A program made the position numbers and the translations under genes. The notes beneath the pieces are model-generated. The model had not been told where the DNA came from. It saw only the letters and a program-made list of their open reading frames with translations, and searched no databases. Shown one piece after another: positions 22,405 through 45,879 of a stretch of 49,718 nt of DNA (position 1 is its first letter; each line of letters opens with the position of its first letter). The DNA is from a virus, in the IMG/VR virus record IMGVR_UViG_3300031749_000453, positions 1-49,718 of that record. One strand, 5' to 3'.

Positions 22405-22405
22405 C

Positions 22406-24626: not shown

Positions 24627-24663
24627 TTTGTCGTCAATCTCCTATTTCTCGTTGGTGTCTGAC

Positions 24664-25524: not shown

Positions 25525-25550
25525 TTACTGTTTTCTCCCTTCTGATTTCT

Positions 25551-27281: not shown

Positions 27282-27467
27282 TCAATACATGCTTATCTTA
27301 ACACGATCTGGCGAATTGTCAAGCCCTTGACTATCCTCGCGGTAACGGGTTAAGTCCACGATGACGGGCAAGCGGCGACTGACAATCTCGATCAGGTCTC
27401 GCTGGGGATCGAAACGAAACAACAGCTTACCGGTGGTAGGCTCGCGGACTTCGCGAAACCCCTGCAT
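27282..27467 (-). CDS. 61-residue small protein of the head operon
   Basis: The protein starts MQGFREVREPTTGKLLFRFD and continues PQRDLIEIVSRRLPVIVDLTRY. It looks like a small beta-alpha domain and is plausibly real. The ATG at 27467 has GGAG at good spacing. It is the first gene after the intergenic RNA candidate and precedes the protease gene. No family name is recognised. Confidence 0.6.
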   Translation of the reverse strand: MQGFREVREPTTGKLLFRFDPQRDLIEIVSRRLPVIVDLTRYREDSQGLDNSPDRVKISMY

Positions 27468-27495
27468 TCACATCTCCTCAGGTTGACTTCTGTCA

Positions 27496-27524
27496 TTGAC
27501 AGATCACTGCCAGCGTGCTAGACT
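27496..27524 (+). promoter_or_regulatory. Plus-strand sigma70-type promoter TTGACA-N17-TAGACT
   Basis: A consensus -35 (27496-27501) and a fair -10 (27519-27524) with 17-bp spacing face rightward, against the direction of the late operon. No plus-strand gene follows. A strong terminator comes about 105 bp after the predicted start near 27531. Confidence 0.55.
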
Positions 27525-27530
27525 AGAATC

Positions 27531-27651
27531 GGTTCTGAGGTGGGAAGCCGCTACCCACGTAACCCTTCCGCTCGTCGGATTGAACAACGAGATGCCGGAG
27601 TCGCGCACGGTGGACGGGACCGCAGAAAGCCAGCCTACGGGCCGGTTTTTT
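27531..27651 (+). ncRNA. Candidate small RNA in the late operon (plus strand)
   Basis: Between the promoter at 27496-27524 and the terminator at 27630-27651 lies a transcript of about 120 nt with no convincing reading frame. Two further hairpins are visible: GTGGG...CCCAC (about 27541-27559) and CTCGT...ACGAG (about 27573-27593). Its 3' end is antisense to the last codons of the MuF-like gene. It could regulate late mRNA or be a decoy. No known RNA family is recognised. Confidence 0.45.
27630..27651 (+). terminator. Rho-independent terminator, usable in both directions
   Basis: CCAGCC-TACG-GGCCGG with one mismatch is followed by six T residues on the plus strand. The stem can be lengthened by the AAA/TTT flanks. 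On the minus strand the same hairpin spans the stop codon of the MuF-like gene, with a poorer T-tail (CTTTCT). Confidence 0.7.
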
Positions 27652-30641: not shown

Positions 30642-30645
30642 GTCC

Positions 30646-32355: not shown

Positions 32356-32704
32356 TGGCTAACCTCACCAACTGGTCGTTTGTCAGCTTCGTTAGGTCGA
32401 TCTGCTGGCCCGAGCTATTAACCTCCTGTCGTTCGACGTAGCCGCGGTCCTTGCCGAGCGTCTTGAGCACAAGCGCAACCGCCCACGGCTCGCCGTTGAG
32501 CACGGCGGCCCGCAGTTTCAGCTCGGACAGGTCGATTAGCTCGCCACGGCTATCCTCAATGGCCTGGCGAATGGCCACACAGGATTTAGCCCGCGTGTAG
32601 ATCGTCTTTGGCGTGCATCCCACCTGCCGCGCAGCCAGATAGACCAGGCCATTGGTAGCCTTGAGGGCCGCTATGATCTTGTCGGTCGAGTAACGCTCAA
32701 CCAT
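32303..32704 (-). CDS. Terminase small subunit-like HTH protein
   Basis: This 133-residue protein has an N-terminal helix-turn-helix (IIAALKATNGLVYLAARQVG, then CTPKTIYTRAK), a helical middle and a C-terminal tail. This is the usual organisation of small terminases that recognise pac or cos. It lies between the methylase and TerL and overlaps both, so the three are translationally linked. Confidence 0.7.
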   Translation of the reverse strand: MVERYSTDKIIAALKATNGLVYLAARQVGCTPKTIYTRAKSCVAIRQAIEDSRGELIDLSELKLRAAVLNGEPWAVALVLKTLGKDRGYVERQEVNSSGQQIDLTKLTNDQLVRLANGDDPIKVLLSARADPA

Positions 32705-34019
32705 CGCTCAACCTCGGCTCCAACCCCATGTCTGCCATTCGCTGCAAACAGACTGCCACATACTTAGGCTCTATTTCCATGCCGTAGCAGACACGCCCAG
32801 TCTGCTCAGCGGCGACCATCGTCGTGCCGGAGCCGAGGAAAGGATCGTATATTAGTTCCCCAGCGAGGCTGGAGTTGCAAATCAGCCGCTCGATCAGAGC
32901 GACCGGTTTCATCGTCGGATGCATAGCCGAGACCTGCGGCCTATCGAATTCGAGCACGCTTGTTTGGAATCCCCCATAGAACTTATGACCCCCGTCCTTC
33001 CACGCGTACAGAATCGGCTCATGTTTGTAGGCATAATCCACACGGCCGAGAACGTGATTGTTCTTCAGCCATATCAGCTCATGGCGGGGCTCAATGCCAG
33101 CTCCCATCATCATCATCATCATCTGGTCACCGCCCTGCGGCATGAAACAGTACACTGCCGCGCCTGCATCCATAACTGCCGCCATTTCGTGGAATGCCAA
33201 CCTCCAGAGCGTCTGTACGCCCTCCTTCGTTCCGTGGTCTCCTGCTATCGGACTCTGAATACGATTGCCCGGGGCAATCGTATTCAGGAAGGCATTCTTA
33301 TCGGCGTACTCCACTCCATACGGAGGATCGGTGACCACCAATCGCGCCAACTTTCCGCCCATCAGCCGCGCCACGTCCTCAGCAGTCGTGCTATCCCCGC
33401 ACATCAGCCTATGCGCCTGTCCCGGCACCGTTTTGCTCGGTATCTCCCACAACTGCCCACGCTCGGTCTGCCATTTCTGCCGCAACTCCTCAGCCCGATC
33501 AACCTGCGGCCCGAGGTCCTCTGGCGCCTGTGCCTTGCCATACTCAAGCCCACTTTTCTCCGCCAGTTCCGCCAGCATCGTCTGGACCGCCTCATCGCCA
33601 GTCGAGACCTCGCGCAACAGTTCATCCAGCTTCCGACCATCCGCCGTGGCCATCGCTCCGATGGGATCAAGCGTTGCCAGTATCAGTTTTTCCTCGGCCT
33701 CCGACAGGTCAACCTGCATGTACGGCACCGGGGTGTCGTCCCCCTCCCTGAACGCCAGCTCCACCCGAAGATGGCCAACAATCAGGTTGCCAGTCCGGAC
33801 ATTCTCCACGACCTGCTGCACCCACCCGACCTCGGCCAGTACGCCGGTCAGCGCCTGCTGCTGCGCCTTCGCGTGTATCCGCCAGTTATTGGGGTTGGCC
33901 AGGAACTCAGACGCTGGCTTTACCCCATGGCCGACTATCCGGTTGCGCCAGGATGGCTCAGTTTGATTGCGTCGTTTGCGCCTCTGTAATTCTGTAATCT
34001 GAGACATTGTCATTCCCAT
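32697..34019 (-). CDS. ParB-like plus N4/N6 DNA methyltransferase fusion
   Basis: This is a protein of about 440 residues. The N-terminal 140 residues are ParB/Srx-like (NWRIHAKAQQQALTGVL, NLIVGHLRVELA). The methylase has VVTDPPYGVEY (catalytic motif IV), then YDPFLGSGTTMVAAEQTG (SAM-binding motif I), which is the order of the beta class. A run of six methionines lies between them. It should methylate phage or host DNA to evade restriction. It is the first gene after the late promoter/leader. The start is uncertain among ATGs at 34019, 34013 and 34007. Confidence 0.85.
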   Translation of the reverse strand: MGMTMSQITELQRRKRRNQTEPSWRNRIVGHGVKPASEFLANPNNWRIHAKAQQQALTGVLAEVGWVQQVVENVRTGNLIVGHLRVELAFREGDDTPVPYMQVDLSEAEEKLILATLDPIGAMATADGRKLDELLREVSTGDEAVQTMLAELAEKSGLEYGKAQAPEDLGPQVDRAEELRQKWQTERGQLWEIPSKTVPGQAHRLMCGDSTTAEDVARLMGGKLARLVVTDPPYGVEYADKNAFLNTIAPGNRIQSPIAGDHGTKEGVQTLWRLAFHEMAAVMDAGAAVYCFMPQGGDQMMMMMMGAGIEPRHELIWLKNNHVLGRVDYAYKHEPILYAWKDGGHKFYGGFQTSVLEFDRPQVSAMHPTMKPVALIERLICNSSLAGELIYDPFLGSGTTMVAAEQTGRVCYGMEIEPKYVAVCLQRMADMGLEPRLSDG

Positions 34020-34068
34020 TTTTTCCGGGTGTCCACACTGCCCCACACCGCTCGCAGCGGATTTTCAT
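33958..34068 (-). CDS. Possible 36-residue Com-like zinc-ribbon peptide
   Basis: An ATG at 34068 opens a short frame that begins MKIRCERCGAVWTPGKNGND and overlaps the methylase start in another frame. MKxIRCxxC is how the Mu Com protein begins, and Com activates translation of the Mu mom modification gene. Only half of a zinc site is present and the ribosome binding site is weak, so this may be chance or a remnant. Confidence 0.25.
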   Translation of the reverse strand: MKIRCERCGAVWTPGKNGNDNVSDYRITEAQTTQSN

Positions 34069-34079
34069 CGCATCCCAAA

Positions 34080-34166
34080 CAAAAAGCCGCCAACACATCC
34101 CGCACGGTCTCGGAACGTCGGCGGCCTAGGTGACGGTTTCCCGCCAGATCAGCCAGGTTTTTTGTA
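34080..34166 (-). ncRNA. Structured late leader RNA (GNRA hairpin then terminator)
   Basis: From the predicted start near 34166, a leader of about 87 nt runs to the T-tract at 34081-34085. It contains a 6-bp stem capped by a GAAA tetraloop (TGGCGG-GAAA-CCGTCA, 34131-34146), then the terminator stem. No reading frame of use lies in it. Its arrangement suits an antitermination or attenuation element controlling the late operon. Confidence 0.55.
34081..34125 (-). terminator. Rho-independent terminator in the late leader
   Basis: On the minus strand GCCGCCGACGT pairs with GTGTTGGCGGC (11 bp including three G-U pairs, loop of 18 nt) and is followed directly by TTTTTG. It lies before the methylase gene, so full late expression would need read-through. 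Confidence 0.7.
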
Positions 34167-34172
34167 GGCTCA

Positions 34173-34201
34173 AGTATACCACTAACTAGACACGCTATCA
34201 A
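34173..34201 (-). promoter_or_regulatory. Late promoter TTGATA-N17-TATACT
   Basis: A near-consensus -35 (34196-34201) and -10 (34173-34178) at 17-bp spacing point leftward, into the methylase-terminase-head-tail-lysis operon. It is the only good promoter noticed at the head of the 26-kb late block. Confidence 0.65.
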
Positions 34202-34237
34202 GCCTCCGCCCTCTCCAACTGATGGAACTGTGAACAG

Positions 34238-34426
34238 TTACGCCCTCTCTGCCTCCTTCCGGCTATCGAACGCCTGCACCGAAATGGTACCGTGTTCGAC
34301 GACAATTGCCAGCCAGCGGTTGCAGCGGCAATGCAATAGCCGCCCATCGGAGCCCGGCCGGTACTCGCCGGCTAGGCGTCCGCACGATGGACAATGCACC
34401 TCGATGCGGCGTTCGATGCTAGTCAA
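34238..34426 (-). CDS. Zinc-ribbon small protein
   Basis: This 62-residue protein has two half-sites: EVHCPSCGRLAGEY and LLHCRCNRWL, i.e. C-x2-C and C-x-C. The layout suits a Com-like or general zinc ribbon. It starts with TTG at 34426 behind AAGGGGGCTCA, directly after the nuclease gene. It ends just upstream of the late promoter. The role is unknown. A regulator of the late methylase, as Com is of mom, is possible. Confidence 0.55.
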   Translation of the reverse strand: MTSIERRIEVHCPSCGRLAGEYRPGSDGRLLHCRCNRWLAIVVEHGTISVQAFDSRKEAERA

Positions 34427-34438
34427 TGAGCCCCCTTC

Positions 34439-34744
34439 TCATGGTCTCTCCAGTCTGGTTTCGGTAGGCTCGGGAGCCACGGGAAGTGCCCCGATTGCTC
34501 GAAGCGCTTCATCGACCGTTCTAACCACAGTTCCACTGCCGCGCCACTCTTGCCACCAGGCCCACTCGTCAGTGGTGAGCCTGCCTTTGGCGGTCTTGAT
34601 TTCCAGGACGTACGTTTGACCGCGGAAGCCCACGAGGAGATCGGGGCATCCGTGGCCAACCTCATAGAGCATGATCACTGAGGCCCCCACTTGTCGCAGC
34701 GCGGCGACGATCTCGCGCTGGTTGGTGTCTACCCGCTTAGGCAC
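34439..34744 (-). CDS. VRR-NUC domain nuclease
   Basis: This 101-residue protein matches stand-alone phage VRR-NUC proteins. REIVAALRQVGASVIMLYEV is followed by the active-site series GCPDLLVGF (Asp) and TYVLEIK (Glu-x-Lys), with a C-terminal helix WAWWQEWRG. The family cleaves branched DNA such as Holliday junctions, which helps prepare replicated DNA for packaging. Its start overlaps the preceding gene by 8 bp. Confidence 0.85.
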   Translation of the reverse strand: MPKRVDTNQREIVAALRQVGASVIMLYEVGHGCPDLLVGFRGQTYVLEIKTAKGRLTTDEWAWWQEWRGSGTVVRTVDEALRAIGALPVAPEPTETRLERP

Positions 34745-34979
34745 GGGCCAGTTCGCTCAGAGCGTTCTGAAGTGCCTCCAGCACCGTCGCCGCCTTGAAC
34801 ATCACCAACACCTCTTTTCTCTCCTGCGCATCGGCAATGATCTGTCCAACCGGCCCACCTCGCCAGAGCCGCTTCGTGCCAGTGCCCCACTTGCCGGGCA
34901 TTTTGAACACTACCACGGCATCAGAGCCGAGCAACGCGATTTGCCGTCTACAATGTTCGGCCATTGCCGCGAGCGTCAT
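34737..34979 (-). CDS. 80-residue early protein of unknown function
   Basis: The protein starts MTLAAMAEHCRRQIALLGSD and continues with a beta segment (AVVVFKMPGKWG), a basic loop and a C-terminal helix. The ATG at 34979 has a perfect AGGAGGAACTAAG ribosome binding site. It is the first gene after the repeat cluster at 35037-35166 and overlaps the VRR-NUC gene. No family is recognised. Confidence 0.6.
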   Translation of the reverse strand: MTLAAMAEHCRRQIALLGSDAVVVFKMPGKWGTGTKRLWRGGPVGQIIADAQERKEVLVMFKAATVLEALQNALSELARA

Positions 34980-35036
34980 CTTAGTTCCTCCTATACCTAG
35001 CCTTCACAAGTCGAAGGTGGATCGTCATCTGTTCTC

Positions 35037-35166
35037 CCCGAGTATGTGCAACGACATTAAAAGAGTTTCCGCTACCCGAGTATGTAAAACGACACTAAAA
35101 GAGTTTCCGCTACCCGAGTATGTAAAACGACATTAATAATTACTATATATGTCGTTTTACATACTC
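35037..35166. repeat. Iteron-like repeat cluster with AT-rich centre (candidate replication origin)
   Basis: A 38-bp unit (CCCGAGTATGTAAAACGACA, then TTAAAAGAGTTTCCGCTA with small changes) occurs at 35037-35074 and 35075-35112. A third copy, shortened to its first 24 bp, starts at 35113. An inverted copy of GAGTATGTAAAACGACAT lies at 35149-35166. Copy three and the inverted copy make an 18-bp perfect inverted repeat around 15 AT-only-but-one bases (35134-35148). The helicase stop codon lies inside the inverted copy. Direct and inverted iterons beside an AT-rich stretch, next to helicase and primase genes, suit an origin or a multi-site operator. Confidence 0.7.
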
Positions 35167-37211
35167 CCTTGACCCCGCCTCGGAACGATGCCTTTCGCCG
35201 GTTTCCCTTCTCCCCGAATCGGCAGAATATGAGCATCATCCGGCCATTGCCAGCGCTCCGGCTGGCTGTTCACCAAGTGAGAAAGATATTTGATTGCCGA
35301 GGGTCGACTTATCCCCAGCTCTCTCACAAGGTCTGCAGAGTAGAGCGGCAGTCGCTCTTGCAGGTAGAGCTCCGCCAGCGCCTCGACCTGTTCCCACTGA
35401 AACACATCTACACCCAAGGGCGCCCCCATGACTTCGCGCATTGACAGCAGTTCAGTTAGTGACAAGTCCCAGATCGGCAGGTTCTCCAGCAGCCACACGT
35501 CCACATCCCGAATGTTCAGCCGGGCCCGGTGGGCGGCCTGGATAATCTCGGCCTCTCGCAGCTGCCAAAGCACGGCGCTGAGTTCCGGGTCCGACCAGAA
35601 CCCGGCCATGGGATAGGTGCGGCCCTTTCCGTCCTCGGCAACGTAGTTGTACGACTTCTCGACGGTCGACCACGCCGTAGTGAAGGGTTCCATTCGCTCG
35701 AAGAAGATCATCTTGGCCATCTTTTCTAGCTGGAATAGTGGCGGTTGTGGGCTGCCGGCGACGATTAGCGCGTCCACATCCTCGAACCGGTTGGTACCCC
35801 GCTCGCCGTAGAAATGCCCGACGTCGGCGAACTCTCGGAACGGCGGCTCGGCGGCCTGGTGGGTGATCACTCCGACCCGTTGGTACCCCTGGTCCTGCAC
35901 GATCTTCTTCGCCACCTTGACGAGCTGCGTCAGCTTCGCAGTCGGCGTCGGTTCTCCGTCGGCCTCTTCCCGGAGCAACGTTCCTTTCCCGTTGGCACGG
36001 TCGTGAATCTGGAAGATCCGGCCCTTCATCTCGATCCGCGGGGAGAACACCTCGACGGGCCGGCCGAGAAGCGCCTCGTAGATCCTCTTAGTTCCCGTCC
36101 CGTCCAGCCACATCAAGTGTGTTGTGGCGGTGCGCCGGCTGAGCCGGTGACGCAGCAGGAGCAAGAGCTTGTGCTTCCCGACGACGATCCGGTGGGGGTA
36201 GTCCCGTCCCAAGCAGGCCGCGCATGCCTCTCGATAGAGCAACGGGAGGAACTGCTCCAGGTAGTCGTAGTCGAGGTTCTCCATGTAGTCGAGCTTCTCC
36301 CGGTTCATACGCTCGGGCTCCGTCAGGCTGCTGGCGGCCCCGGGTGCCGCCCACGGCTCAATAATCCGGCGCACCGCGTCAGCCCCGCCGATGACCATGA
36401 GCAACTCGGGCCCCTCCGCTACCGTGGTGCCTGTCTGGGCCAGCTCCTGCAGCCGCGCCAGTAGTGCCCACAGCTCCCGGTGCTCCGGGAAGCGCTTCGA
36501 CGGCAGGATGTGATGAGCAGGAATAACCTGCTCGTGGAGGAACGCCCCGATCGGTACCTCGTCACCGATCACCATGTGGAACGTGAAGGGGTGTGAGAGC
36601 GCCACGTGCTGATGCTGGCCGTAGATGATCGGTTGTGGAACGTGGTACTGCTCCAGGTAGTCGCAGGGCGTGTCAACGTCGCCCGGTCGAAGCCCACAAA
36701 CCCCGAGACAGAACGACGCCCCGTCGAAGCCCCGGGCGAGCCAGGTGGCGATCTGCTGGTGGTACCGGCAGGTGTGCTCGTCCCGCGGCAGCCACTCGTA
36801 GAACCACGCGATCGAATCCGGGTTGATCTTGTCTGCCTCGACTAGCACGTCGTTGTACAGAGCATGCCGCGGTCCCGCGTAGAGGACGCGCCGGCCCGCG
36901 CGCGCCAACTGGATCGCCAGGCGCACTGCGGCGTGGGTCTTGCCGATCCCGGGCGGTACCGTGGGGACTAAGGCGTAAATTGGTTGCGCCTCGTTCGCGT
37001 AGGCTAGCATCCTATGCCACAACTCCCTTCGGGCCTCGTCGACCGTGAGGCTCGGTTCCCGACTCCGGTCGGGCAGGTCGCAAATCCCTAGCCGTCGCCA
37101 GAGCGCCGATCTCTGCCAATCCGGCGGCTCCTCCGGCGTTCCCTCCGGGAGCGATAGATCCCCCCGCGGGCGCTCGAAGTGTCGCAATACATCCTCGAAC
37201 CCATCACGCAC
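35157..37211 (-). CDS. SF2-like helicase/ATPase
   Basis: This is a 684-residue protein. Walker A is LVPTVPPGIGKTHAAVRLA (residues about 82-100). A probable motif II is HMVIGDEVPIG (DEVP in place of DEAD). Motif VI-like IIQAAHRARLNIRD lies near residue 565. The C-terminus carries a helix-turn-helix-like segment (YSADLVRELGISRPSAIKYL). Cysteines around CRYHQQ and CGLRPGDVDTPC may bind metal. It overlaps the primase gene by 8 bp, so the two act together in phage replication. The variant motif II makes the exact family uncertain. Confidence 0.7.
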   Translation of the reverse strand: MRDGFEDVLRHFERPRGDLSLPEGTPEEPPDWQRSALWRRLGICDLPDRSREPSLTVDEARRELWHRMLAYANEAQPIYALVPTVPPGIGKTHAAVRLAIQLARAGRRVLYAGPRHALYNDVLVEADKINPDSIAWFYEWLPRDEHTCRYHQQIATWLARGFDGASFCLGVCGLRPGDVDTPCDYLEQYHVPQPIIYGQHQHVALSHPFTFHMVIGDEVPIGAFLHEQVIPAHHILPSKRFPEHRELWALLARLQELAQTGTTVAEGPELLMVIGGADAVRRIIEPWAAPGAASSLTEPERMNREKLDYMENLDYDYLEQFLPLLYREACAACLGRDYPHRIVVGKHKLLLLLRHRLSRRTATTHLMWLDGTGTKRIYEALLGRPVEVFSPRIEMKGRIFQIHDRANGKGTLLREEADGEPTPTAKLTQLVKVAKKIVQDQGYQRVGVITHQAAEPPFREFADVGHFYGERGTNRFEDVDALIVAGSPQPPLFQLEKMAKMIFFERMEPFTTAWSTVEKSYNYVAEDGKGRTYPMAGFWSDPELSAVLWQLREAEIIQAAHRARLNIRDVDVWLLENLPIWDLSLTELLSMREVMGAPLGVDVFQWEQVEALAELYLQERLPLYSADLVRELGISRPSAIKYLSHLVNSQPERWQWPDDAHILPIRGEGKPAKGIVPRRGQGSM

Positions 37212-38088
37212 TTTTCGCCTTCGTCGTCACTGCGTCGGCGAGATCGGCCTTCATTGGCGTTCCCGCGGGCCAACGGTAGAGCGTCACGTGGAGACCTGCG
37301 GTCAGCAGGTCGTTGGTGACCTTCACTCCGTTGGCCAGTCCCGCGTCGTCGTGGTCATAGACCACCAAGACCTGTTTGGGTTTCACCGCGGCGATCCTCT
37401 CGGTCCACCCTGGCAGCCACGTCGACGCCCCCTGCGAGCTCGCCACGGCGGGAATGTCCGGCCGGCGTTGCATCCAGAGCATCGCCGAGAACGGCGCTTC
37501 CGTGACGATCAGGCTGCAGCCACGGGTTAGCATTTCGGCGCCGAAGAGCGCGGGTTTGGATCCGGCCGACTGCAGCCACTTGGCGTCCGTGTCCTGCGGC
37601 AACACCGCTCGGCCCTTGAGCCCGACCAGCCGACCGTTCTCGTACACCGGGAGAATGATCCGCGGCAGGCGACACCGCGAAGCCGGCAGGACCCCATAGC
37701 CGATCCGCCAGCGGTCGATGGTGTCGCCGACGAAGCCGCGGTCCAGCAGGTAGTCCCAGGCGAAAGGCGGAATCGGCTGGAAACAGCGCGGGATCGACCG
37801 ATCCTGCTGCCAGCGAAACGAGAGGGCTGGCTTGGGCGACTTTGGTTTCGGCAGATCCCGGCCGTATCCGTCAATCAGTCTGAGGTGTTGGGCCAAACGC
37901 CTCAGACTGCCCTTCGCATCACAGGCAAAACACGCGAATCCGCGTTCCGAGAAGGAGAACGAACCGATGTGCCGGTCATCATGGTACGGGCACTGACACC
38001 AATACTCCCCCCGTCGGTCCGGCCAGAGCCGTGGGCTGATGGTTCGCTCGCGCTCGAAGTGGCGGATGATAGCGTCGAGCAGGTTCAT
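37204..38088 (-). CDS. DnaG-like primase (CHC2 zinc finger plus Toprim)
   Basis: This 294-residue protein is a short phage primase. The zinc finger is CQCPYHDD (residues 31-38) with GFACFACDAKG (50-60). The Toprim metal sites are LIVTEAPFSAM (Glu) and LVVYDHDDAG (Asp-x-Asp). PRIILPVYENGRLVGLKGRA matches the region before Toprim in DnaG-type enzymes. There is no helicase-binding C-terminal domain, so it probably relies on the neighbouring helicase. ATG at 38088. Confidence 0.9.
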   Translation of the reverse strand: MNLLDAIIRHFERERTISPRLWPDRRGEYWCQCPYHDDRHIGSFSFSERGFACFACDAKGSLRRLAQHLRLIDGYGRDLPKPKSPKPALSFRWQQDRSIPRCFQPIPPFAWDYLLDRGFVGDTIDRWRIGYGVLPASRCRLPRIILPVYENGRLVGLKGRAVLPQDTDAKWLQSAGSKPALFGAEMLTRGCSLIVTEAPFSAMLWMQRRPDIPAVASSQGASTWLPGWTERIAAVKPKQVLVVYDHDDAGLANGVKVTNDLLTAGLHVTLYRWPAGTPMKADLADAVTTKAKSA

Positions 38089-38092
38089 GGTG

Positions 38093-38161
38093 CTACCTCG
38101 TCTCGGTTCGGGATGAGGCTGCCCCGTTAAGCTCGTCCATCTGGCTTTCCGATACTGACAT
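38093..38161 (-). CDS. Possible 22-residue leader peptide before the primase
   Basis: An ATG at 38161 with GAGAGAGGGGGCAACC upstream opens a 22-codon frame (SVSESQMDELNGAASSRT) that ends five bases before the primase ATG. Good spacing and position suggest translational coupling, but the peptide is too short to judge. Confidence 0.3.
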   Translation of the reverse strand: MSVSESQMDELNGAASSRTETR

Positions 38162-38266
38162 GGTTGCCCCCTCTCTCGCAGCTATGATCGAACCCATCCA
38201 TCCAGCAGAACTCACAGACACCGTCATAGGTGATCCGCCGGCCACACTCAAAAGGGCAGATCGTCG
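38127..38266 (-). other. Cysteine-rich frame with no clear start
   Basis: A frame overlapping the end of the coiled-coil gene reads CPFECGRRITYDGVCEFCW and continues MDGFDHSCERGGNH, a possible zinc site (C-x3-C, C-x2-C). It lacks an ATG or GTG start. The nearest option is a TTG inside the upstream gene. It may be a real small gene using a rare start, or a remnant. Confidence 0.3.
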
Positions 38267-38745
38267 TTGAACTCTGGCTCGACCTTTTCCCCGGCCGCCA
38301 TCGCAACCTCCACCGCCTTTCGCAATACCCGCTGGTCTGTCGCGTCGTCGAAGGCGTTGTCGTCGGTCGCGTCGTGGTGGTCAGTCTGGACGCCAGAGCG
38401 GTCTAGCGCCTCGGCGAGTGCGGCCCTGATCCGCCATTCCTCAGCCCGCCGCTCGTCCTTGGCGTCCTCAAGGTCTGCCTCGACGGCAAGACAATCGGCT
38501 TCCATGTCCCGGACGTTCTTCAGCGCGTGCTGGTATTCGTCGTCGCAGGCGAGCGCCAACGTCAGTGCTCGCTGTCGGGTTTCAGTATTGCTGCCCAGGC
38601 CCTTGTCACCGCCGGCAGCTTCGGTAACTCGCGCCTCTGCCCTGGCCCTCGCCGTTTCCAACTCATCCCGGGCCATCTGCAGATTGATCCGCGCGCTCAC
38701 CACCTGATGCCGTAGATCCCTGATCCGCTTAAGCAACCTTTCCAT
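38248..38745 (-). CDS. Coiled-coil replication-associated protein with SSB-like acidic tip
   Basis: This 165-residue protein is almost wholly helical (LLKRIRDLRHQVVSARINLQ, then long Ala/Glu/Arg-rich helices). It ends in an acidic tail finishing EPEFNDDLPF. The last five residues mimic the conserved DDLPF-type C-terminal tip of bacterial SSB, which recruits primase, RecQ-family helicases and other partners. No OB fold is visible. ATG at 38745, AAGGAG ten bases upstream, inside the end of the ATPase gene. It lies between the RecA-fold ATPase and the primase. Confidence 0.6.
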   Translation of the reverse strand: MERLLKRIRDLRHQVVSARINLQMARDELETARARAEARVTEAAGGDKGLGSNTETRQRALTLALACDDEYQHALKNVRDMEADCLAVEADLEDAKDERRAEEWRIRAALAEALDRSGVQTDHHDATDDNAFDDATDQRVLRKAVEVAMAAGEKVEPEFNDDLPF

Positions 38746-39862
38746 CGGCCGCCTTCTCCTTGTCGTCGATTTTCCCCTTGAGGTAGTCGCTGAACTTCTC
38801 CAGTGTTTCTCTCGGGGCGTTTCCCAAAGGGGCGCTGTAGCTGAACTTGGCTGCCAGAGCCCTCTGGATCCAGTCATCCGAGACCCCAAGCCTTTTCTGG
38901 TAGCCGGCAATGAGGTCGAGGTAGTACTTGCGCTTCGCGTTCCCCATGATGTTCTCTGACTTTTTGTCGTCGACTTTCCCCTTCAGGTAGTCGTCGAACC
39001 GCACCAGCTCGGCATCAGACATTTCGTTGAGATCGGTTGGTACTCCTAATAGGTATGCGGTAGCATCGCTCATCCATTTGTCAGAGACGCCCCACTGCTT
39101 CTGGTTCTGGGCGATGCGGTCTAGGAGCTTCTGGCGCTCTGGGCTAATGAGCGGGTTGTTGGTGGCTGCCGGCGCTGCGCTAAGCCAGCCAAGGAGAATT
39201 TGCGCCAGATCCTTGCCCGGCTTGGGGATGACCTTGTCCGCAAGCGCGGGGCAACGCGTCTTGGAGATGACCATGTTGTGGTCGAGATCCATCTCACCCA
39301 CCACGTCATGCTCGTACTCTCCACCCTCCCGGGTGATTGGATTCATGCCGACCTTCTTGATGACCGTGTACCCGTTCTTGTCGATGGTCTGGATGTAGTC
39401 CATCTTCGAGCGGTACGTCACGAAGATGTGCATGTCGGCCTGGTGAATCGCCTCGATGAAGGCGTTGTGGAGGGGTGTCACGTCGGACCACGCTGCCCAG
39501 TTGTTCCCAGCCTTGTTCTTCTTCGCGAAGACGTCCAGCAGTTCCAAGCAGCCATTGTGCCCGGACCACTCGTGAGATGCCGAGTCGATGATCAGCCCGT
39601 CATAGCCTGCCATCTGGGCGCTCTTGATTGCTCCGATGTAGTTTTCCGGGTGAAAGTCGTTCAGCTCCAGGGTGTCGAAGTGGAATTGGTCGGCGTATTT
39701 GCTTAGCGAGCCGTGCTCCGTGTCGATCGCGGCGATCTTCTTGCACATCGCCGAGGCCAATGTGAGCGCCGTCCATGACTTGCCCGAGCCAGAGGGCCCC
39801 GAGATTGCCATCCGCAGCTTGGCGGCCGCCTTAGTTGCCTTGGTGAATTGGAAGTCAGCCAT
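38729..39862 (-). CDS. RecA-fold AAA ATPase (phage recombination/replication)
   Basis: This 377-residue protein has Walker A SGPSGSGKSWTAL (residues 21-33), IAAIDTEHGSLSKYAD after the first strand and Walker B GYDGLIIDSASHEWSG near 90. A RecA-like sensor region follows (MHIFVTYRSKMDY). This is the AAA_24-type phage ATPase often found beside recombination genes. The C-terminal 140 residues contain two related helical units, each ending in a SDYLKGKIDDK- or DDYLKGKVDDK-like sequence, an internal duplication. It probably loads or anneals single-stranded DNA. Confidence 0.75.
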   Translation of the reverse strand: MADFQFTKATKAAAKLRMAISGPSGSGKSWTALTLASAMCKKIAAIDTEHGSLSKYADQFHFDTLELNDFHPENYIGAIKSAQMAGYDGLIIDSASHEWSGHNGCLELLDVFAKKNKAGNNWAAWSDVTPLHNAFIEAIHQADMHIFVTYRSKMDYIQTIDKNGYTVIKKVGMNPITREGGEYEHDVVGEMDLDHNMVISKTRCPALADKVIPKPGKDLAQILLGWLSAAPAATNNPLISPERQKLLDRIAQNQKQWGVSDKWMSDATAYLLGVPTDLNEMSDAELVRFDDYLKGKVDDKKSENIMGNAKRKYYLDLIAGYQKRLGVSDDWIQRALAAKFSYSAPLGNAPRETLEKFSDYLKGKIDDKEKAADGKVA

Positions 39863-39968
39863 CGCTAAATGTCCTTTCCGACGTACATGCTAACGATCAG
39901 AGGCCTTGCCGTGTGCCTCGATGATGATCTTGACCTTGATGTCGTTGTTCACGGTATTCTGCCGTCAA

Positions 39969-40235
39969 TCAGGAATCAGCCCGGCGAGAAAAGGGCAACC
40001 GAACAGAATCGCCGCGAACACCAGCCCGGCTAGTATCTCCCGCCGGATCAGCCGTCGCCGCTTCTCCCGCTGGTACGATTCGTATTCCCAACAGTGCGAA
40101 CGCCGCATGAATCTCCTTTCTCATCTCGGCCATCTCCCGCGCTTGCCGCTGCTGCGCGAGCTCCATCCGGATGATCGCCTTACAAACCAGATCCAATGCG
40201 TCCTCGTCCACCCGAACCCGCCTCTCGCCATTCAT
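39969..40235 (-). CDS. Small helical protein
   Basis: An 88-residue protein starts MNGERRVRVDEDALDLVCKA and contains a coiled-coil helix (IIRMELAQQRQAREMAEMRK). Its N-terminus overlaps the preceding small gene by 56 bp in another frame. No family is recognised. The position is early operon, upstream of the ATPase. Confidence 0.5.
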   Translation of the reverse strand: MNGERRVRVDEDALDLVCKAIIRMELAQQRQAREMAEMRKEIHAAFALLGIRIVPAGEAATADPAGDTSRAGVRGDSVRLPFSRRADS

Positions 40236-40365
40236 TGGGGCCTACCAGATCCAACTCGCCCACGTTCAGCCCGACCCCCCAAGAGCAATCATGGGCACCG
40301 ACGTAGACTCGCGTTCCTCGCCACACGTTCTTCACTGTCTGATTCGCTCCCCCTGAATAACCCAT
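40180..40365 (-). CDS. 61-residue small protein
   Basis: The frame begins MGYSGGANQTVKNVWRGTRV and continues YVGAHDCSWGVGLNVGELDL. The composition (aromatics, Gly, beta-prone) looks protein-like. The last 18 codons overlap the next gene. Either this frame or the overlapping one may end sooner in reality. The function is unknown. Confidence 0.45.
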   Translation of the reverse strand: MGYSGGANQTVKNVWRGTRVYVGAHDCSWGVGLNVGELDLVGPNEWREAGSGGRGRIGSGL

Positions 40366-40447
40366 ATGGGTAGCCGGCCTATCGTGCGCCCGGCAACCCG
40401 CTTGAGATGTGCAAAATACCGCAGTCCGCCACGGCCGGCGACTGCGG

Positions 40448-40630
40448 TTAGATGCTACGTCGTTTGGCCAGCACTCGCCTGCTGTCCTGGTTCCGCCAGT
40501 AGATCCGGGCCAGGTCCCACGTGCGCTGGCGGTCGCCGTTCCAACGAGAGGCGACGATCTGTCCGACGATCACGCGCGAGATGACCCGGTACACGTAGTG
40601 ACGCTGGAGCAATTTCTGCCGCTCGGTCAT
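40448..40630 (-). CDS. 60-residue basic helical protein
   Basis: The protein begins MTERQKLLQRHYVYRVISRV and is strongly basic (13 or so Arg/Lys). It could bind nucleic acid. Its ATG overlaps the stop of the preceding gene as ATGA, so it is translated by coupling. Confidence 0.55.
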   Translation of the reverse strand: MTERQKLLQRHYVYRVISRVIVGQIVASRWNGDRQRTWDLARIYWRNQDSRRVLAKRRSI

Positions 40631-40836
40631 GCCGTCACCCCTTGGACTCGATAGACGATCGCGATCTGCGTGCCTACCGAGTCGTACCATGCCTGCACGG
40701 TCGCCGGTCGGCCTAGCGCCTCTGCATAAGCAATAGCCTTCTGCTTGTCCCGGAATCCCCGCTCGTACCATGGGGCGTACACAACGTACTTGAATACGTG
40801 TCGCGTTGGATCTGCATTCACTCGTGGGTCGTTCAT
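40627..40836 (-). CDS. 69-residue early protein
   Basis: The ATG at 40836 has a strong AAGGAGG upstream and overlaps the stop of the 46-residue gene (ATGA). The protein contains FKYVVYAPWYERGFRDKQKA, AIAYAEALG and a strand TQIAIVYRVQ. It resembles a small alpha/beta domain. No family name is recognised. The frame is open further upstream to 40980, but that stretch reads as shadow of the preceding gene. Confidence 0.55.
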   Translation of the reverse strand: MNDPRVNADPTRHVFKYVVYAPWYERGFRDKQKAIAYAEALGRPATVQAWYDSVGTQIAIVYRVQGVTA

Positions 40837-40973
40837 GAGGCCTTTTCCTCCTTTCTCTCCTGTTCTTCCGTCCGCATGGGCCGCGTCAGGAGACGGTAGA
40901 GCGCCTCTACGCAGGCATCCATGTCGGGCTCGTATTCGATGTGGATCACCAATGGCTTGTCGCGCCTGGGCAT
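40833..40973 (-). CDS. 46-residue early protein
   Basis: A short frame starts at an ATG (40973) with GGGGAGAGGTGCATC upstream. It reads MPRRDKPLVIHIEYEPDMDA and ends in a charged tail. Its stop overlaps the next start as ATGA. This makes it the first of three coupled small genes behind the Cro-like gene. The function is unknown. Confidence 0.5.
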   Translation of the reverse strand: MPRRDKPLVIHIEYEPDMDACVEALYRLLTRPMRTEEQERKEEKAS

Positions 40974-40992
40974 GATGCACCTCTCCCCTTCC

Positions 40993-41253
40993 TCAAGCTA
41001 TCTTGTCCTCTTGGGCAAGGCCTACGTGTCTTAGCGTAGGCCCCGGTGGCCTATTTGGGGCCAACAAAAAAGCGGCAAGGTCAAGTGCCAACTCGGGGAA
41101 CCTCACCTGAATCCGTTTGGCCATATCTAATGTGATCCGTCGTTCGCCAGCGTAGATCTTGCTCAGATAGGACTGGGTGATCCCCAGTTCGGCGGCGAAC
41201 TCGGTCTGGGATTTCTCGCCTTGCTTCTCTTTGAGCTTCTCGATAATGTCCAT
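40993..41253 (-). CDS. Cro-like XRE family regulator
   Basis: This 86-residue protein has a clear XRE helix-turn-helix (SQTEFAAELGITQSYLSKIY, residues 15-34), followed by AGERRITLDMAKRIQVRFPE. It is the first gene of the leftward early operon and diverges from the repressor, the normal place for Cro. I chose the ATG at 41253. The frame is open far upstream, but the promoter lies at 41293-41322, so longer forms are unlikely. It would repress the repressor promoter and favour lytic growth. Confidence 0.8.
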   Translation of the reverse strand: MDIIEKLKEKQGEKSQTEFAAELGITQSYLSKIYAGERRITLDMAKRIQVRFPELALDLAAFLLAPNRPPGPTLRHVGLAQEDKIA

Positions 41254-41292
41254 CGTTCCGACTTTCTCTGGCCCCATAGTCCAACCCGTCAT

Positions 41293-41322
41293 AGTATAGC
41301 CCTTGGTGTACTGACTTGTCAA
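41293..41322 (-). promoter_or_regulatory. Leftward early promoter TTGACA-N18-TATACT
   Basis: A perfect -35 (41317-41322) and near-consensus -10 (41293-41298) drive the Cro-like operon. A TGACTTGTCA near-palindrome (41312-41321) covers the -35. A CGTCATAG motif (41287-41294) overlaps the -10 and recurs at 41361-41368 near the repressor promoter. Confidence 0.75.
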
Positions 41323-41340
41323 GCCCCTTTTCCACCAATT

Positions 41341-41357
41341 TGGCAACGAATATGCCA
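41341..41357. promoter_or_regulatory. Candidate operator TGGCA-N7-TGCCA
   Basis: A 17-bp inverted repeat lies between the two divergent promoters, at about the -35 position of the rightward repressor promoter. A size and symmetry suiting an XRE dimer make it a good site for autoregulation by the repressor or Cro-like protein. Confidence 0.5.
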
Positions 41358-41373
41358 TGGCGTCATAGGTCAA

Positions 41374-41382
41374 TGATATAAT
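41374..41382 (+). promoter_or_regulatory. Rightward repressor promoter with extended -10 (TGATATAAT)
   Basis: A perfect TATAAT (41377-41382) is preceded by TGN, the extended -10 motif, while the -35 region is poor. Transcription would start near 41389, only about 12 bases before the ATG at 41401 and close to a GTG at 41392, so the repressor mRNA may be nearly leaderless. Confidence 0.65.
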
Positions 41383-41400
41383 CGCTGCAGGGTGCTTGTC

Positions 41401-41862
41401 ATGAGTGAAGTTAGAATCAACCGTATCAATCTGAGGGCGCAACGTGAAGCGCAAGGCTTGACCCAAGGCCAGCTGGCAGTCAAGGCCGGAGTTAATCAAT
41501 CCTACATCTCCAAGCTGGAGAAGGGAGAACGCAAGACTGCCAGCCTAGCGGCCGTGGGCAAGCTGGCCGCTGCGTTGCGGGTACCAGTCGCAGAGTTGCT
41601 AGTCCAGACCCGTCCAGGGAAGCCAAACGAGTTGCCCGAGTTCCACGCCTACATCAGCCGCAAGTTCCCCGACGACCCTCGCCTGCGGCAAGCGCTCGCG
41701 TCTGTCTACGATGCCATCAAGAGCGTCGAGGAGGAGGAGGAGAGTCTCGACCGAGAACGGGAAGAGCGACGACAACGGGAAGCCGAGGACAGAGAGCAAA
41801 GACGGCAGGCGCAACAGCAAGCACCCGATTCGGGAACAGAACAGTCAGAACCCCACGGCTAA
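41401..41862 (+). CDS. XRE family repressor (CI/ImmR-like)
   Basis: This 153-residue protein has an N-terminal helix-turn-helix (REAQGLTQGQLAVKAGVNQS, then YISKLEKGERKTASL, residues 16-55). A helical linker and a very charged coiled-coil tail follow (EEEEESLDREREERRQREAE). There is no LexA-type S24 peptidase domain, so RecA-driven self-cleavage is not expected. Instead an ImmA-like protease encoded 1.1 kb downstream could inactivate it. It starts the plus-strand lysogeny operon that ends with the integrase. Confidence 0.85.
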   Translation: MSEVRINRINLRAQREAQGLTQGQLAVKAGVNQSYISKLEKGERKTASLAAVGKLAAALRVPVAELLVQTRPGKPNELPEFHAYISRKFPDDPRLRQALASVYDAIKSVEEEEESLDREREERRQREAEDREQRRQAQQQAPDSGTEQSEPHG

Positions 41863-41913
41863 AGCCGGAAGTATCCAGCGCGGGACGCTTGATGATTAGG
41901 AGGTGACTGACGA

Positions 41914-42558
41914 GTGGACAAACGGGCCCTCTTAGCGATTGGCGGGCTCGGTGGGTTGATTGCCCTTCTTTGTCTCTGCGGTATAATCGTCAACGCGGTG
42001 AGTCCAACCAAGAGCCCGAAGGTTGAAGGCGCGCTGGTGCTTATGACCGCAACAGCGCCGGTACAGGGCCCGGGCTTGCCGACAGTAACGCCCAAACCAA
42101 TGGCGACCGAGAGGCCGACTGCGACGCCGAAACCGACCGAGATTCCAGTCCCTACAGCCACGCCAGTTCCCGGGGTAGGTGAAACCCAAACCATTGGGGA
42201 CTTGGCCGTGACCTTCGACAAAGCTGTCCGTCAGACCAGATTACAGGATAATGTCTGGAACTACCAGGCAAAGGGCGTGTTTGTCTTGGTCTACCTGACG
42301 TTGATGAATAATGGCAAGGAGACGATCTCCCTTCATGATAGAGATTGCCACTTGATGCTACCTGATGAAACCAGATATAACGCTGGTTGGGTCATGATGC
42401 AACGCTACCAAGGATACGAAATCCTGTACCTCTATGAGAATGCTCCGCCTAAATTGCCGGCGAAGGTGCTGGTCATATTCGATGTGCCGACGGACGCTAC
42501 CGGTTTCACGTTCACGGTCGGGCAGAAGGCACCGATAAGTTTCGCCGTGCCGGACTAG
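41914..42558 (+). CDS. Membrane-anchored DUF4352-like protein (lysogenic conversion candidate)
   Basis: This is a 214-residue protein. Residues 6-30 are a membrane anchor or signal (LLAIGGLGGLIALLCLCGII). Residues 45-85 are a Pro/Thr-rich linker (TVTPKPMATERPTATPKPTE). The C-terminal 125 residues form an Ig-like/telokin-like domain (AVTFDKAVRQTRL, GVFVLVYLTLMNNGKETISL, LVIFDVPTDATGFTF), as in DUF4352 proteins of Gram-positive and related bacteria. GTG start at 41914 with AGGAGGTGACTGACGA. It lies in the lysogeny operon and is probably expressed from the prophage at the cell surface. It has no known phage structural role. Confidence 0.7.
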   Translation: MDKRALLAIGGLGGLIALLCLCGIIVNAVSPTKSPKVEGALVLMTATAPVQGPGLPTVTPKPMATERPTATPKPTEIPVPTATPVPGVGETQTIGDLAVTFDKAVRQTRLQDNVWNYQAKGVFVLVYLTLMNNGKETISLHDRDCHLMLPDETRYNAGWVMMQRYQGYEILYLYENAPPKLPAKVLVIFDVPTDATGFTFTVGQKAPISFAVPD

Positions 42559-42586
42559 AAGCGGATGCCAAGGAGGGGCTAGTGGG

Positions 42587-42784
42587 ATGCAAGTTCTTAC
42601 GTTGACCTGCCCAAGCGGCGGCAAACTGGAAGTCGACGACGAGATGGAGCGTTTCACTTGTGGCTACTGCGGAACAGAGCAGATCGTCATCCGCAAAGAT
42701 GTGCCCTACAAACGATTCCGCGTGCTGCCGCCTGATCCGCACGGCTTTGACAGCGATCACGATGGGATGGGCTGCGAAAGCTAG
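42587..42784 (+). CDS. Zinc-ribbon plus Excalibur-like mini-protein
   Basis: A 65-residue protein combines a ribbon-like N-terminus (LTCPSGGKLEVDDEMERFTC, then GYCGTEQIV) with a calcium-loop tail DPHGFDSDHDGMGCES. The tail matches the Excalibur motif D-x-D-x-D-G-x-x-C-E. Excalibur domains usually sit at the C-terminus of secreted proteins, so finding one on an unexported-looking mini-protein is odd. ATG at 42587, GGAGGGGC-like sequence about ten bases upstream. Confidence 0.55.
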   Translation: MQVLTLTCPSGGKLEVDDEMERFTCGYCGTEQIVIRKDVPYKRFRVLPPDPHGFDSDHDGMGCES

Positions 42785-42942
42785 GAATCAGGAGACTTGG
42801 TTCACGAACTGGCAGGCATTTCTCGGGGCCGCGTCTGGCCCGAGGGCAAAGGAGGGTCTCGTTGTCAAGAGACATGGCGGGCATCTCAGGCGAAATGTGA
42901 TCAACTCATCCCCCTTCCCTCTAGAACAGGCGTGCGGTTATG

Positions 42943-42951
42943 TGGTATAAT
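42943..42951 (+). promoter_or_regulatory. Extended -10 promoter for immA-int (TGGTATAAT)
   Basis: A perfect TATAAT (42946-42951) with a TGN extension lies about 45 bp before the ImmA-like start, with a poor -35. Because it is independent of the repressor promoter, the protease and integrase may be expressed on their own. Confidence 0.6.
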
Positions 42952-42994
42952 GCCAGCCGAGCACGGGGACGCATGTAAGGGGAGGAAGAGGATC

Positions 42995-43585
42995 TTGGAT
43001 GAAACCGTCGCCGCGATGGGAGACCTCGAACGTTTGGAGCGCATCATCGACCATCTGTTAAACGGAGCTGGCATCATCAGTCCACCGGTGCCAATCAACA
43101 TCGTGGCCCTTATTGATCCCAGTATGCCAGTCCGCATCGTTGAACGGCAGCTCCAGGTGTACAGGGCAGCGCTTAAGCCTAGCGCTGGCCGTTGGTTGAT
43201 CATCGTCAATCAAAGCCTGCCGCGGGCAGCCCAGCGCTTTAGCATTGCCCACGAAGCCTTTCATATCCTGCAACGCAACGGGTTCGCTACCTCCAAGGAT
43301 CATGTCTCGCCATACGTCGAATGGCTGGCCAACCAGTTCGCCGCCCGGGTGCTGATGCCCCGCCGCTGGGTGGTGGAGTTGGCGCCAAAGGCTCGCAACG
43401 CCCGTCACCTCGCCGGTATCTTCTACGTGTCCGAGAAGGCGATGAGTCGTCGGCTAGGGGAGCTCAACTTGAAGTTTGGGGGGCGACACGATGTTGATCA
43501 ACAGCCAACGTCTGCGAGAGTCGCACCAGAGGGTCCCGAGCCTACCTATGAGGAATTGAAACGAGAACGGTCGCCGGCCTGGTGA
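42995..43585 (+). CDS. ImmA/IrrE-type metalloprotease
   Basis: This 196-residue protein has the zinc site IAHEAFHILQR (H86-E-x-x-H90) and a downstream VEWLANQFAARVLMPRRWV helix, whose Glu/Asn-Gln-Phe-Ala region is typical of the family. ImmA proteins cleave the phage or ICE repressor on a host signal. It shares an operon with the integrase. I chose the TTG at 42995, which has AAGGGGAGG nine bases upstream. A longer frame to 42797 overlaps the promoter. The C-terminus ends in GPEPTYEELKRERSPAW, part of which is duplicated at 9931-9962. Confidence 0.85.
   Translation: MDETVAAMGDLERLERIIDHLLNGAGIISPPVPINIVALIDPSMPVRIVERQLQVYRAALKPSAGRWLIIVNQSLPRAAQRFSIAHEAFHILQRNGFATSKDHVSPYVEWLANQFAARVLMPRRWVVELAPKARNARHLAGIFYVSEKAMSRRLGELNLKFGGRHDVDQQPTSARVAPEGPEPTYEELKRERSPAW
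43532..43563. repeat. 32-bp exact repeat, inverted copy of 9931-9962
   Basis: This copy codes for GPEPTYEELKR near the C-terminus of the ImmA-like protein. In the circular phage the two inverted copies would flank a segment of about 4.1 kb carrying integrase, attP, the HTH gene and the lysin. Confidence 0.85.
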
Positions 43586-43636
43586 ACTAGTGGTTGATCC
43601 CCAGATAGAGCAGCAGATTTTGGGGGTGGTGCGCCG

Positions 43637-45238
43637 ATGACCACTGAGCGCGTGGCGGTCTACGTAAGGGTCTCCAGTGAAGACCAGAAGGAAGCGGGAA
43701 CCATTGAGAACCAGATCGACTTCGCCCGCCGCTACTGCGACCTGCACGACTTACCCGTCCACCAGGTCTATGCCGATGATGGGGTCAGCGGCACGGTGGC
43801 CGTGAGTGAGAGACCGGGCGGCCGGCGGCTGCTCAGCGATGCCAAGGCGGGGAAGTTTCAAGTCGTCCTGGTTCTGAAGATCGACCGGCTGGCCCGCTCT
43901 CTCTGGCACCTGCTGAACGTCTACAACGAGCTGTCCGAATGCGACGTCGGCATTTGCTCCATGACCGAGCCCCTCGATACCAGCTCGCCGATCGGGCGGT
44001 TCGTCTTCCAGCTCCTAGGCAGCATCGCCGAGCTGGAGAGAGCGACCATCATGGAACGGACCGCCTTGGGGCGGCTAAGGGCAGCCAGGTCCGGACGTTG
44101 GGCCGGCGGTCAGCCTCCGTTCGGCTACCGGCTCGAAGACAAGCGCCTCGTGGTAGATGACGCCGAAGCCGCCGTCGTCCGGCGCATCTTCCACCTCTGC
44201 GTCGACGAGGATATGGGGATCATCCCCATTGCCGAGCTCTTCAACGCCGAGGGTGTGCCAACGGTCTTTACCCACCGGGGGGTCAAGACGAGCCGCTGGC
44301 CAACCCAGGAGCACCGCTGGGACAACAGCGTGATCTCTCGCATGCTGGGCAATCCGATCTATACCGGAAGGTATGTCCTCGGCAAGAGCAGAGGTAAGGC
44401 CCTCGTCGAATGCGAAGCGCCAGCGATCGTCGACGCCGCGACCTTCGACGCCGCGCGCCGGCTGCTCAAAGAGCGCACCACCGAGGCCTCCCGCAATGCC
44501 CGGCGCCTCTACCTCCTACGCGGCCTAGTGAAGTGCCACTGTGGCCGGGCGATCGTGGGCAACGGCAACCACAAGCGCCATGCCTTCGAGTACGTCTGTC
44601 CGACGTGGAAGCACTTTCGCCTGCGGGCCGAGGTTCTCGAAGGGGCGGTCTGGGCCCATCTCGACGCGTGGGGCCGCAACCCCGGCCCGGCGATCGCCGA
44701 GCTGCATGAGCGACTTCGCGCCGAGGCGAAGGAACACATCGACGTTTCGCAGGAACTCGCGGACCTATCCGAGCAGATCGCCGCCAAGAAGGCCGAGCAG
44801 GACACCGTGATCACCCTCTTCCGCAAGGCGCGAATCACTGAGGCGCAGCTCGACAATCAGCTTGATGCACTCAACGTGGAACTCCGAGCCTTGGAGGCGC
44901 ACCAGAAGAGCCTGCTCGAGCGACAGGCCATCGCGCAGATGCAGGAGACGGCTCTCATCTCGGCAGAGGCGATCCTGATGCGGCTAGGGGAACGGTTAGA
45001 CGAGGCGCGAGACAGCCCTGAGCTGCAACGAGAGCTGATCAAGTGCCTCATCGCCAGCATGACGGTAGACCAAGACGGTTCTATCCACATCCGGTTTCGC
45101 TTCGCGGATTCCTCTGTAGAAACCTCGAGAATCAGGGAAAGGGTCGACAGCGCCCGGTTCAGCTCGCGTGCGGGCTCGAGGATCGGCGCCAGGTCGGAGA
45201 CGCCCCAGAACTGCTTGGGCTCCCGCAGGTTGGGGTAG
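43637..45238 (+). CDS. Large serine integrase, 3' end exchanged by integration
   Basis: This 533-residue enzyme has an N-terminal catalytic domain (AVYVRVSSEDQKEAGTIENQ with the active serine near residue 13, LKIDRLARSL near 75-84). Next are the recombinase domain (GGQPPFGYRL onward), a zinc ribbon (GLVKCHCGRAIVGNG, YVCPTW) and a coiled coil (about 370-450). It performs attP x attB recombination. Phage DNA ends at codon 497 (45127). The last 36 codons are antisense portal sequence of element B. In the excised circle codon 497 would be followed by the frame of the HTH gene at 7405-7731, giving 605 residues. ATG at 43637, GGGGGTGG seven bases upstream. Confidence 0.9.
   Translation: MTTERVAVYVRVSSEDQKEAGTIENQIDFARRYCDLHDLPVHQVYADDGVSGTVAVSERPGGRRLLSDAKAGKFQVVLVLKIDRLARSLWHLLNVYNELSECDVGICSMTEPLDTSSPIGRFVFQLLGSIAELERATIMERTALGRLRAARSGRWAGGQPPFGYRLEDKRLVVDDAEAAVVRRIFHLCVDEDMGIIPIAELFNAEGVPTVFTHRGVKTSRWPTQEHRWDNSVISRMLGNPIYTGRYVLGKSRGKALVECEAPAIVDAATFDAARRLLKERTTEASRNARRLYLLRGLVKCHCGRAIVGNGNHKRHAFEYVCPTWKHFRLRAEVLEGAVWAHLDAWGRNPGPAIAELHERLRAEAKEHIDVSQELADLSEQIAAKKAEQDTVITLFRKARITEAQLDNQLDALNVELRALEAHQKSLLERQAIAQMQETALISAEAILMRLGERLDEARDSPELQRELIKCLIASMTVDQDGSIHIRFRFADSSVETSRIRERVDSARFSSRAGSRIGARSETPQNCLGSRRLG
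45100..45150. other. attR: right junction of prophage A (core CTCG 45124-45127)
   Basis: Phage DNA ends and portal DNA resumes at CTCG. The phage-side half-site is CGGATTCCTCTGTA (45105-45118). With the half-site at 7410-7423 it rebuilds attP as an imperfect palindrome centred on the core. Integrase coding continues straight across the junction. Confidence 0.85.
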
Positions 45239-45879
45239 ACGACGAACGGGATGAAGCCGTAGGGATTGCGCCGCTGCCAGATCAGGTCGGGGCCGGCCCA
45301 TAGCTCGAACCGCTGCGCCGTCCAGCCCTCGGTGATCGTCACGTTGTCGGCCGTCGTTCGGTAGCGGTAGAGGCGTAGCGCCTCGTCCCTGTCCACCTGG
45401 TACCGCGAGGCCAGTTTCACCATCCGGCCGATGTCGTCACCGGCCCACCAGACGAAGATGCCCTGCATATCCGGCGCGGTAATGCGCACGCGCTTCTCCT
45501 CGGTATCCCAGATCACCTTGTAGCAGCCGTCCCCCAGCACCGCAGTGTCGATCTCGTTATCCAGGTCTAGTTGCGCCAGATTGTTTGCCTCGGCCACCTC
45601 GTAGAGGATGGCTTCGGCCTGTTGAGCGTCGGCACGTTCTAACGTTTGAACGTTGGAACGTTCTAACGGCACATCGACCGCCCAATTAACATCGGCCATC
45701 ACGTAGGAAGTCACCTTGTCGATCATGATCTTGGCGTAGTTGAAGGTGATCCGGCGCTCCCGCCGGCCCTGCCGCCCCGTCCACTGCGCACCTTTGTAGA
45801 AGTCCAGGTACTCGCGATAGCGCCGGAGCCGCCCGATATCCCGGTTTGCCACCTCTTCCGGCAACGTCTTGGCGTTCAA
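45124..45879 (-). pseudogene. Portal protein, N-terminal half (split by element A)
   Basis: These 252 codons are the N-terminal part of an SPP1 gp6-like portal: RYREYLDFYKGAQWTGRQGR, KIMIDKVTSYVMADVNWAVD, ILYEVAEANNLAQLDLDNEI, RRNPYGFIPFVVYPNLREPK and the last native residues LSTLSLILE. After that the frame reads about 85 nonsense codons antisense to the integrase. The TTG start at 45879 has a strong AAGGAGGG ribosome binding site. The C-terminal half is at 6819-7400. An expressed truncated portal could poison assembly of other phages, but this is speculation. Confidence 0.9.

Follow-up and report, generated by a model that had tools for sequence, protein, structure and literature searches.

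We propose that an inserted siphophage carries its attachment site (attP) inside its own serine integrase gene, in codons for the linker between the recombinase and a C-terminal HTH domain, that this gene is whole in the circular phage and split in the prophage, and that the HTH domain serves the free-phage state. Drawn from comparison of sequences, this is the best overall explanation of the data, and we give it a probability of roughly 0.8. The window (the whole stretch of DNA analysed, 49,718 bases) is a complete IMG/VR virus record and a single metagenomic contig, from which attP and attB were deduced.

One phage interrupting the portal gene of another

The window holds two nested phage genomes: a siphophage is inserted, in antisense orientation, into the gene that encodes the portal of the other. 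The GC content is 0.602 in the inserted genome versus 0.646 and 0.636 in the flanks. The outer phage encodes, on the minus strand, a helicase loader, a terminase, an SPP1-type portal, a capsid protein, and an SU10-type adaptor. The features of the insertion are as follows.

7405..45127, no strand: inserted siphophage, 37,723 bp, with its own portal, terminase, protease (head), tape measure, tail fibre, and endolysin
45128..45879, minus strand: outer phage portal gene (the attB gene), N-terminal half, PF05133
6819..7404, minus strand: outer phage portal gene, C-terminal half, PF05133
7401..7404, no strand: attL core CTCG, the 4-bp repeat restoring the portal
45124..45127, no strand: attR core CTCG, the same 4-bp repeat, restoring portal frame and fold

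Joining the flanks at CTCG produces a 445-aa portal in frame, with a single match to SPP1_portal (PF05133) over residues 16-436 (54.8 bits), and the restored protein also aligns with a relative across the junction. Two other repeats were considered as cores and rejected. AGCTCGC (7399/45161), the sole other frame-keeping repeat, removes 13 conserved portal residues and gives 46.4 bits in two pieces, and the 5-bp repeat CGAGA (7395/45126) puts the portal out of frame. An in-frame fusion of integrase and HTH results from both frame-keeping cores.

The integrase gene continues across the core

The integrase open reading frame (ORF) occupies 43637-45238 on the plus strand and encodes 533 aa, with matches to Resolvase (PF00239), Recombinase (PF07508), and Zn_ribbon_recom (PF13408), all over the cut-off. 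These domains, the identical short core at both ends, and the restored target gene identify a large serine integrase (LSR). The gene occupies the right end of the inner phage and is directed outward; at the left end is a small HTH_17/zinc-ribbon gene directed inward. The features of this region are as follows.

42797..43585, plus strand: regulator / ImmA-type metalloprotease gene upstream of the integrase gene (phrog_2439, phrog_87)
43637..45127, plus strand: integrase part retained in the prophage, 497 aa, with resolvase, recombinase, zinc ribbon, coiled coil, and last beta strand
45128..45238, plus strand: replacement tail from host DNA, consisting of 36 codons of antisense portal and a stop, RIRERVDSARFSSRAG.. 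(translation)
7405..7731, plus strand: C-terminal half of the integrase gene, left as an orphan of 108 aa whose frame is in register with int across the core
7447..7569, plus strand: HTH_17 / excisionase-type DNA-binding domain (PF12728, 2e-8; TIGR01764; phrog_66)
7591..7653, plus strand: CxxC..CxxC zinc-ribbon-like motif, from sequence

The coding sequence reaches residue 497 (..VETS) at 45127, and the alignment of the integrase with its relatives stops at the same place as this 497-aa part. The initial annotation had placed attP inside the integrase gene and had predicted an exchange of C-termini on integration and a 605-aa integrase-HTH protein in the circle, and each of these claims held. 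The frame crosses the core, and relatives show the same plan; 36 antisense portal codons follow ..VETS in the prophage, and the tails of relatives differ as well. In the virtual circle, an open 605-aa frame results when 45127 is connected to 7405 (..ADSSVETS joined to PFTDQSVTLEQKMQFLGTSQLAEK..AVRAK, then a stop); the bridge at 7405-7440 has no stop, and the integrase has none of its own there.

Relatives encode the fusion as a single gene

The nearest integrase (L058), with 38-39% identity to that of the window, is a single stop-to-stop ORF with an HTH_17-like domain at its C-terminus. The virtual fusion from the window aligns with this ORF over residues 3-552, HTH and junction included, with 331 bits; the support from L058 is its fused ORF, and its attP was not located. 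In the search for close relatives of L058, only L058 itself was found. Likewise no close relative was found for the HTH_17/zinc-ribbon tail of the window. With the window HTH as query, tblastn in phages gave no match, and the single match in a viral scan (L165) is an unrelated XRE gene. Cas6 / CRISPR-associated genes (PF10040, PF08798) lie a few kilobases downstream of the fused integrase (L058:14698-16241) and could be phage-borne or part of a host flank.

More distant relatives from Bacillota have a different C-terminus after the core, a double XRE-type HTH of ~155 aa (41-88% identity) that has two HTH_3 matches and resembles cI/Cro-type repressors. Single fused Int-HTH ORFs of this lineage are present in L014, L016-L018, L035, and L063, and in the genome of the isolated phage Paisley, whose 695-aa serine recombinase is an Int-double-HTH fusion; the Harrison record has a match score equal to that of Paisley. 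Another contig (L011/L127), circular with a 115-nt terminal repeat, retains an intact fusion in a 697-aa stop-to-stop frame. Between L014 and L018, dN/dS is ~0.12-0.13 in the HTH tail, at a dS of 0.63, and 0.04 in the integrase part; as measured by these substitution ratios, purifying selection acts on the fused HTH tail in the relatives.

The L014 fusion was modelled structurally (32-row alignment, mean pLDDT 79), and in the model the core codons (around residue 530) fall in a low-confidence linker at 526-557, between the last recombinase strand and two well-modelled HTHs. The placement of the domains relative to one another cannot be derived from the model because the pTM is low (0.36). In L022, L047, L048-L050, and L172 the frame crosses the core and ends 30-40 codons later, with no fused HTH. 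Because L022, L047, and L048-L050 keep only a phage tail of 30-40 aa, the HTH appears not to be essential and can be lost. Two or more large serine recombinase ORFs stand in tandem on the same strand in L059, L061, L062, L064, L067, L079, L081, and L115.

In the integrase tree, the HTH_17 pair (the window and L058) is set apart from the XRE group, a placement that rests on long branches. Given this separation, two acquisitions of an HTH, or one replacement, are possible. Among 400 genomes of Chloroflexi, the phylum of L113, four distant integrases were found, and the C-termini of two of them (L184, L186) are without an evident HTH.

Integrated copies have exchanged the HTH domain for a host tail

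Integrases of integrated prophages end shortly past a conserved [HR]T[DV] motif, in host-variable sequence (comM in the cases tested). In several comM prophages, the integrase stop codon comes from host DNA within a few codons (..HTDKDS, then the stop). Paisley and the P. larvae prophage copies L051/L052 are identical through ..IKVINGTPV, after which Paisley has the HTH domain and the prophages have an 18-aa foreign tail. A search of 40 genomes or records located the HTH domain that these integrases lack: it lies at the other end of the prophage and is encoded on the same strand. The initial annotation had proposed frame conservation across attP in related phages as a check, and many relatives passed it. 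All six pairs with unambiguous cores (8-15 bp) are in register (Paenibacillus sp. A3, P. woosongensis, P. dokdonensis, Heliobacterium mobile, Clostridium ganghwense, and Pelosinus propionicus, the last with its halves on different contigs). Three further cases (P. massiliensis, Hathewaya, and Megamonas) are in register by homologous codons only and stand outside the six. Left out of the count were L100/L125, L118/L120, L089/L129, and L090/L123 (differing contigs or unclear cores), and most far ends of IMG/VR proviruses were trimmed and uninformative.

Four of the prophages (L095/L130, L092/L131, L091/L124, L094/L122) lie antisense in comM at the NPCPCG codons, and joining the host flanks at this motif gives an intact ComM of 506-557 aa in four hosts. 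Of 14 orphan halves, 13 have no Shine-Dalgarno/start pair between the core and the HTH. Taken at the level of reading frames, the integrated copies demonstrate that the gene is split, that it can be restored in frame, and that its tail is swapped. Pelosinus fermentans JBW45 (L107:4977-6757 / L134) has a broken fused-type integrase with an adjoining HTH remnant and a second HTH copy nearby, an arrangement that is probably a decaying duplicate.

Comparison with self-disrupting recombinases

Self-disrupting recombinases are exclusive to archaea, according to a review (PMC8371274). In the archaeal suicidal integrases of the SSV1, pTN3, and pT26-2 types, as here, attP lies inside the integrase gene and integration splits that gene (PMC8371274). 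However, the archaeal enzymes are tyrosine recombinases that are broken and inactivated on integration (PMC8371274), whereas here the enzyme is a serine recombinase, the recombinase part stays whole, and only the C-terminal HTH is removed. Since self-splitting integrases have been described as exclusive to archaeal tyrosine recombinases, the arrangement appears to be a new serine-integrase variant: a bacterial family that splits its own gene yet keeps the enzyme intact, such that recombination edits the recombinase.

A search of openly accessible journal papers returned no description of a serine integrase gene that harbours attP, and absence from that search is not proof. The initial annotation had likewise considered the arrangement undescribed as far as was known to it. 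Public databases already contain related phages whose genes are fused, apparently without any description of this feature. The Paenibacillus phages Paisley and Harrison were published with an ordinary integrase, and in the accessible text of those reports neither the HTH part, nor attP, nor a splitting of the gene is mentioned (PMC6070908, PMC11860570). The comM / Mg-chelatase gene family is given as the target of 12.4% of site-specific integrases in the accessible text of a survey (PMC10083194). The comM-targeting large serine recombinases described there share their target gene with the Bacillota relatives studied here, and that text mentions neither integrase splitting nor a lost HTH. When integrase sequences are taken from prophages of this family, the free-phage domain is missing from them and a host-encoded tail is present.

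Proposed mechanism and alternatives

In the mechanism that we propose, the attP core would lie within the integrase gene, in flexible-linker codons between the complete recombinase and the C-terminal HTH, and the undivided gene of the circle would yield an Int-HTH protein. When strands are exchanged at the core, the gene would be divided, leaving the prophage with the catalytic part, a short tail, and a stop from the target gene. The HTH part would be stranded at the other prophage end, where it is probably not made because it is mostly without a start signal. Excision would rejoin the fused gene. In the free phage, the most likely role of the HTH would be to bind near attP or the int promoter and thereby favour integration or limit Int; its loss would leave a bare integrase, quiet until a recombination directionality factor (RDF) is made. 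We infer two protein forms, Int-HTH in the circle and Int with a host tail in the prophage, that would differ in activity. The initial annotation had suggested a built-in directionality switch, which would be one possible role; rather than being a directionality factor, the HTH would more probably assist the reaction in the attP state, repress the int region, or act as a latch on the excised state. We would give even odds to the broader proposition that, in these bacterial serine integrases, recombination acts as a domain switch, with free-phage Int-HTH and bare Int plus host tail differing in reaction preference or regulation and the gene storing the integration state. The arrangement points to an enzyme with a built-in record of the phage state, free or integrated. 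The control of direction by serine integrases is a long-standing question, and one answer can be put to a direct test with these natural pairs of protein forms, which share their catalytic part and differ in having the HTH or not.

A tentative alternative is that the HTH is a transcriptional regulator, fused for genetic economy, which would act on int or on early genes while the phage is circular and would be removed on integration, with recombination equal in both forms. The double XRE domains do match cI/Cro-type repressors. There is also a precedent in the integration-dependent immunity of mycobacteriophages, in which attP lies inside the repressor gene and integration alters the C-terminus of the protein; there, however, the split gene is the repressor and the integrase is a tyrosine recombinase, whereas here the split gene is the integrase. 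This explanation must also account for the separate XRE regulator genes that many of these loci already have upstream of int.

Less probably, the fused HTH is itself an RDF, such that the circle form, Int-HTH, prevents re-integration and promotes attL x attR, and the truncated prophage Int cannot excise, a latch that stabilises either state. The window HTH, which matches phrog_66, scores 30.3 bits with the excisionase-family model TIGR01764 (cut-off 28.8), but this applies to the window domain only: the XRE-lineage C-terminal domain has no TIGR01764 match and is repressor-like rather than excisionase-like. The well-studied RDFs of serine integrases, phiC31 gp3 and Bxb1 gp47, are not known to be HTH_17 proteins. 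In artificial fusions of serine integrases to RDFs, attL x attR recombination is activated and favoured, with a reduction in attP x attB (PMC5737554). They likewise place a second protein on the integrase C-terminus, although they are engineered and use real RDFs, gp3 and gp47 (PMC5737554), whereas the fusions here are natural, have HTH domains, and are joined at the recombination site itself. The excisionase reading fits poorly with our data because an RDF joined to Int ought to impair integration of the circle, just as happens with the artificial fusions; lysogen formation from the circle would be impeded, and prophage excision would be left without its factor.

It is unlikely that the window fusion is accidental, with attP situated at the 3' end of int and a separate HTH gene that is in frame by luck. 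A stop-free, in-register bridge of 12 codons is expected by chance with a frequency of ~0.24 (24%), so the window by itself is weak evidence; that from the family is strong. In L060 int is followed by a separate HTH_17 gene, and the HTH part of the window could start separately at the ATG at 7441. However, no clear ribosome site precedes this ATG, int is stopless in the circle, L058 has a collinear natural fusion, and the XRE lineage has the same gene plan.

An assembly or boundary artefact, with mis-joined junctions or a core elsewhere, is highly improbable: the window is a single contig and its core just 4 bp (though short cores are usual for serine integrases), but the portal is restored in frame, the family match spans the junction, the fusion arises from either frame-keeping core, and independent isolate genomes have the same plan.

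The outer phage should be disabled until excision, as a complete phage interrupts its portal gene (6819-7404, 45128-45879). The portal gene may be a regular or a secondary target. Finally, one protein of the inner phage (32697-34046) combines ParB-like and DNA methyltransferase matches (phrog_498, phrog_620).
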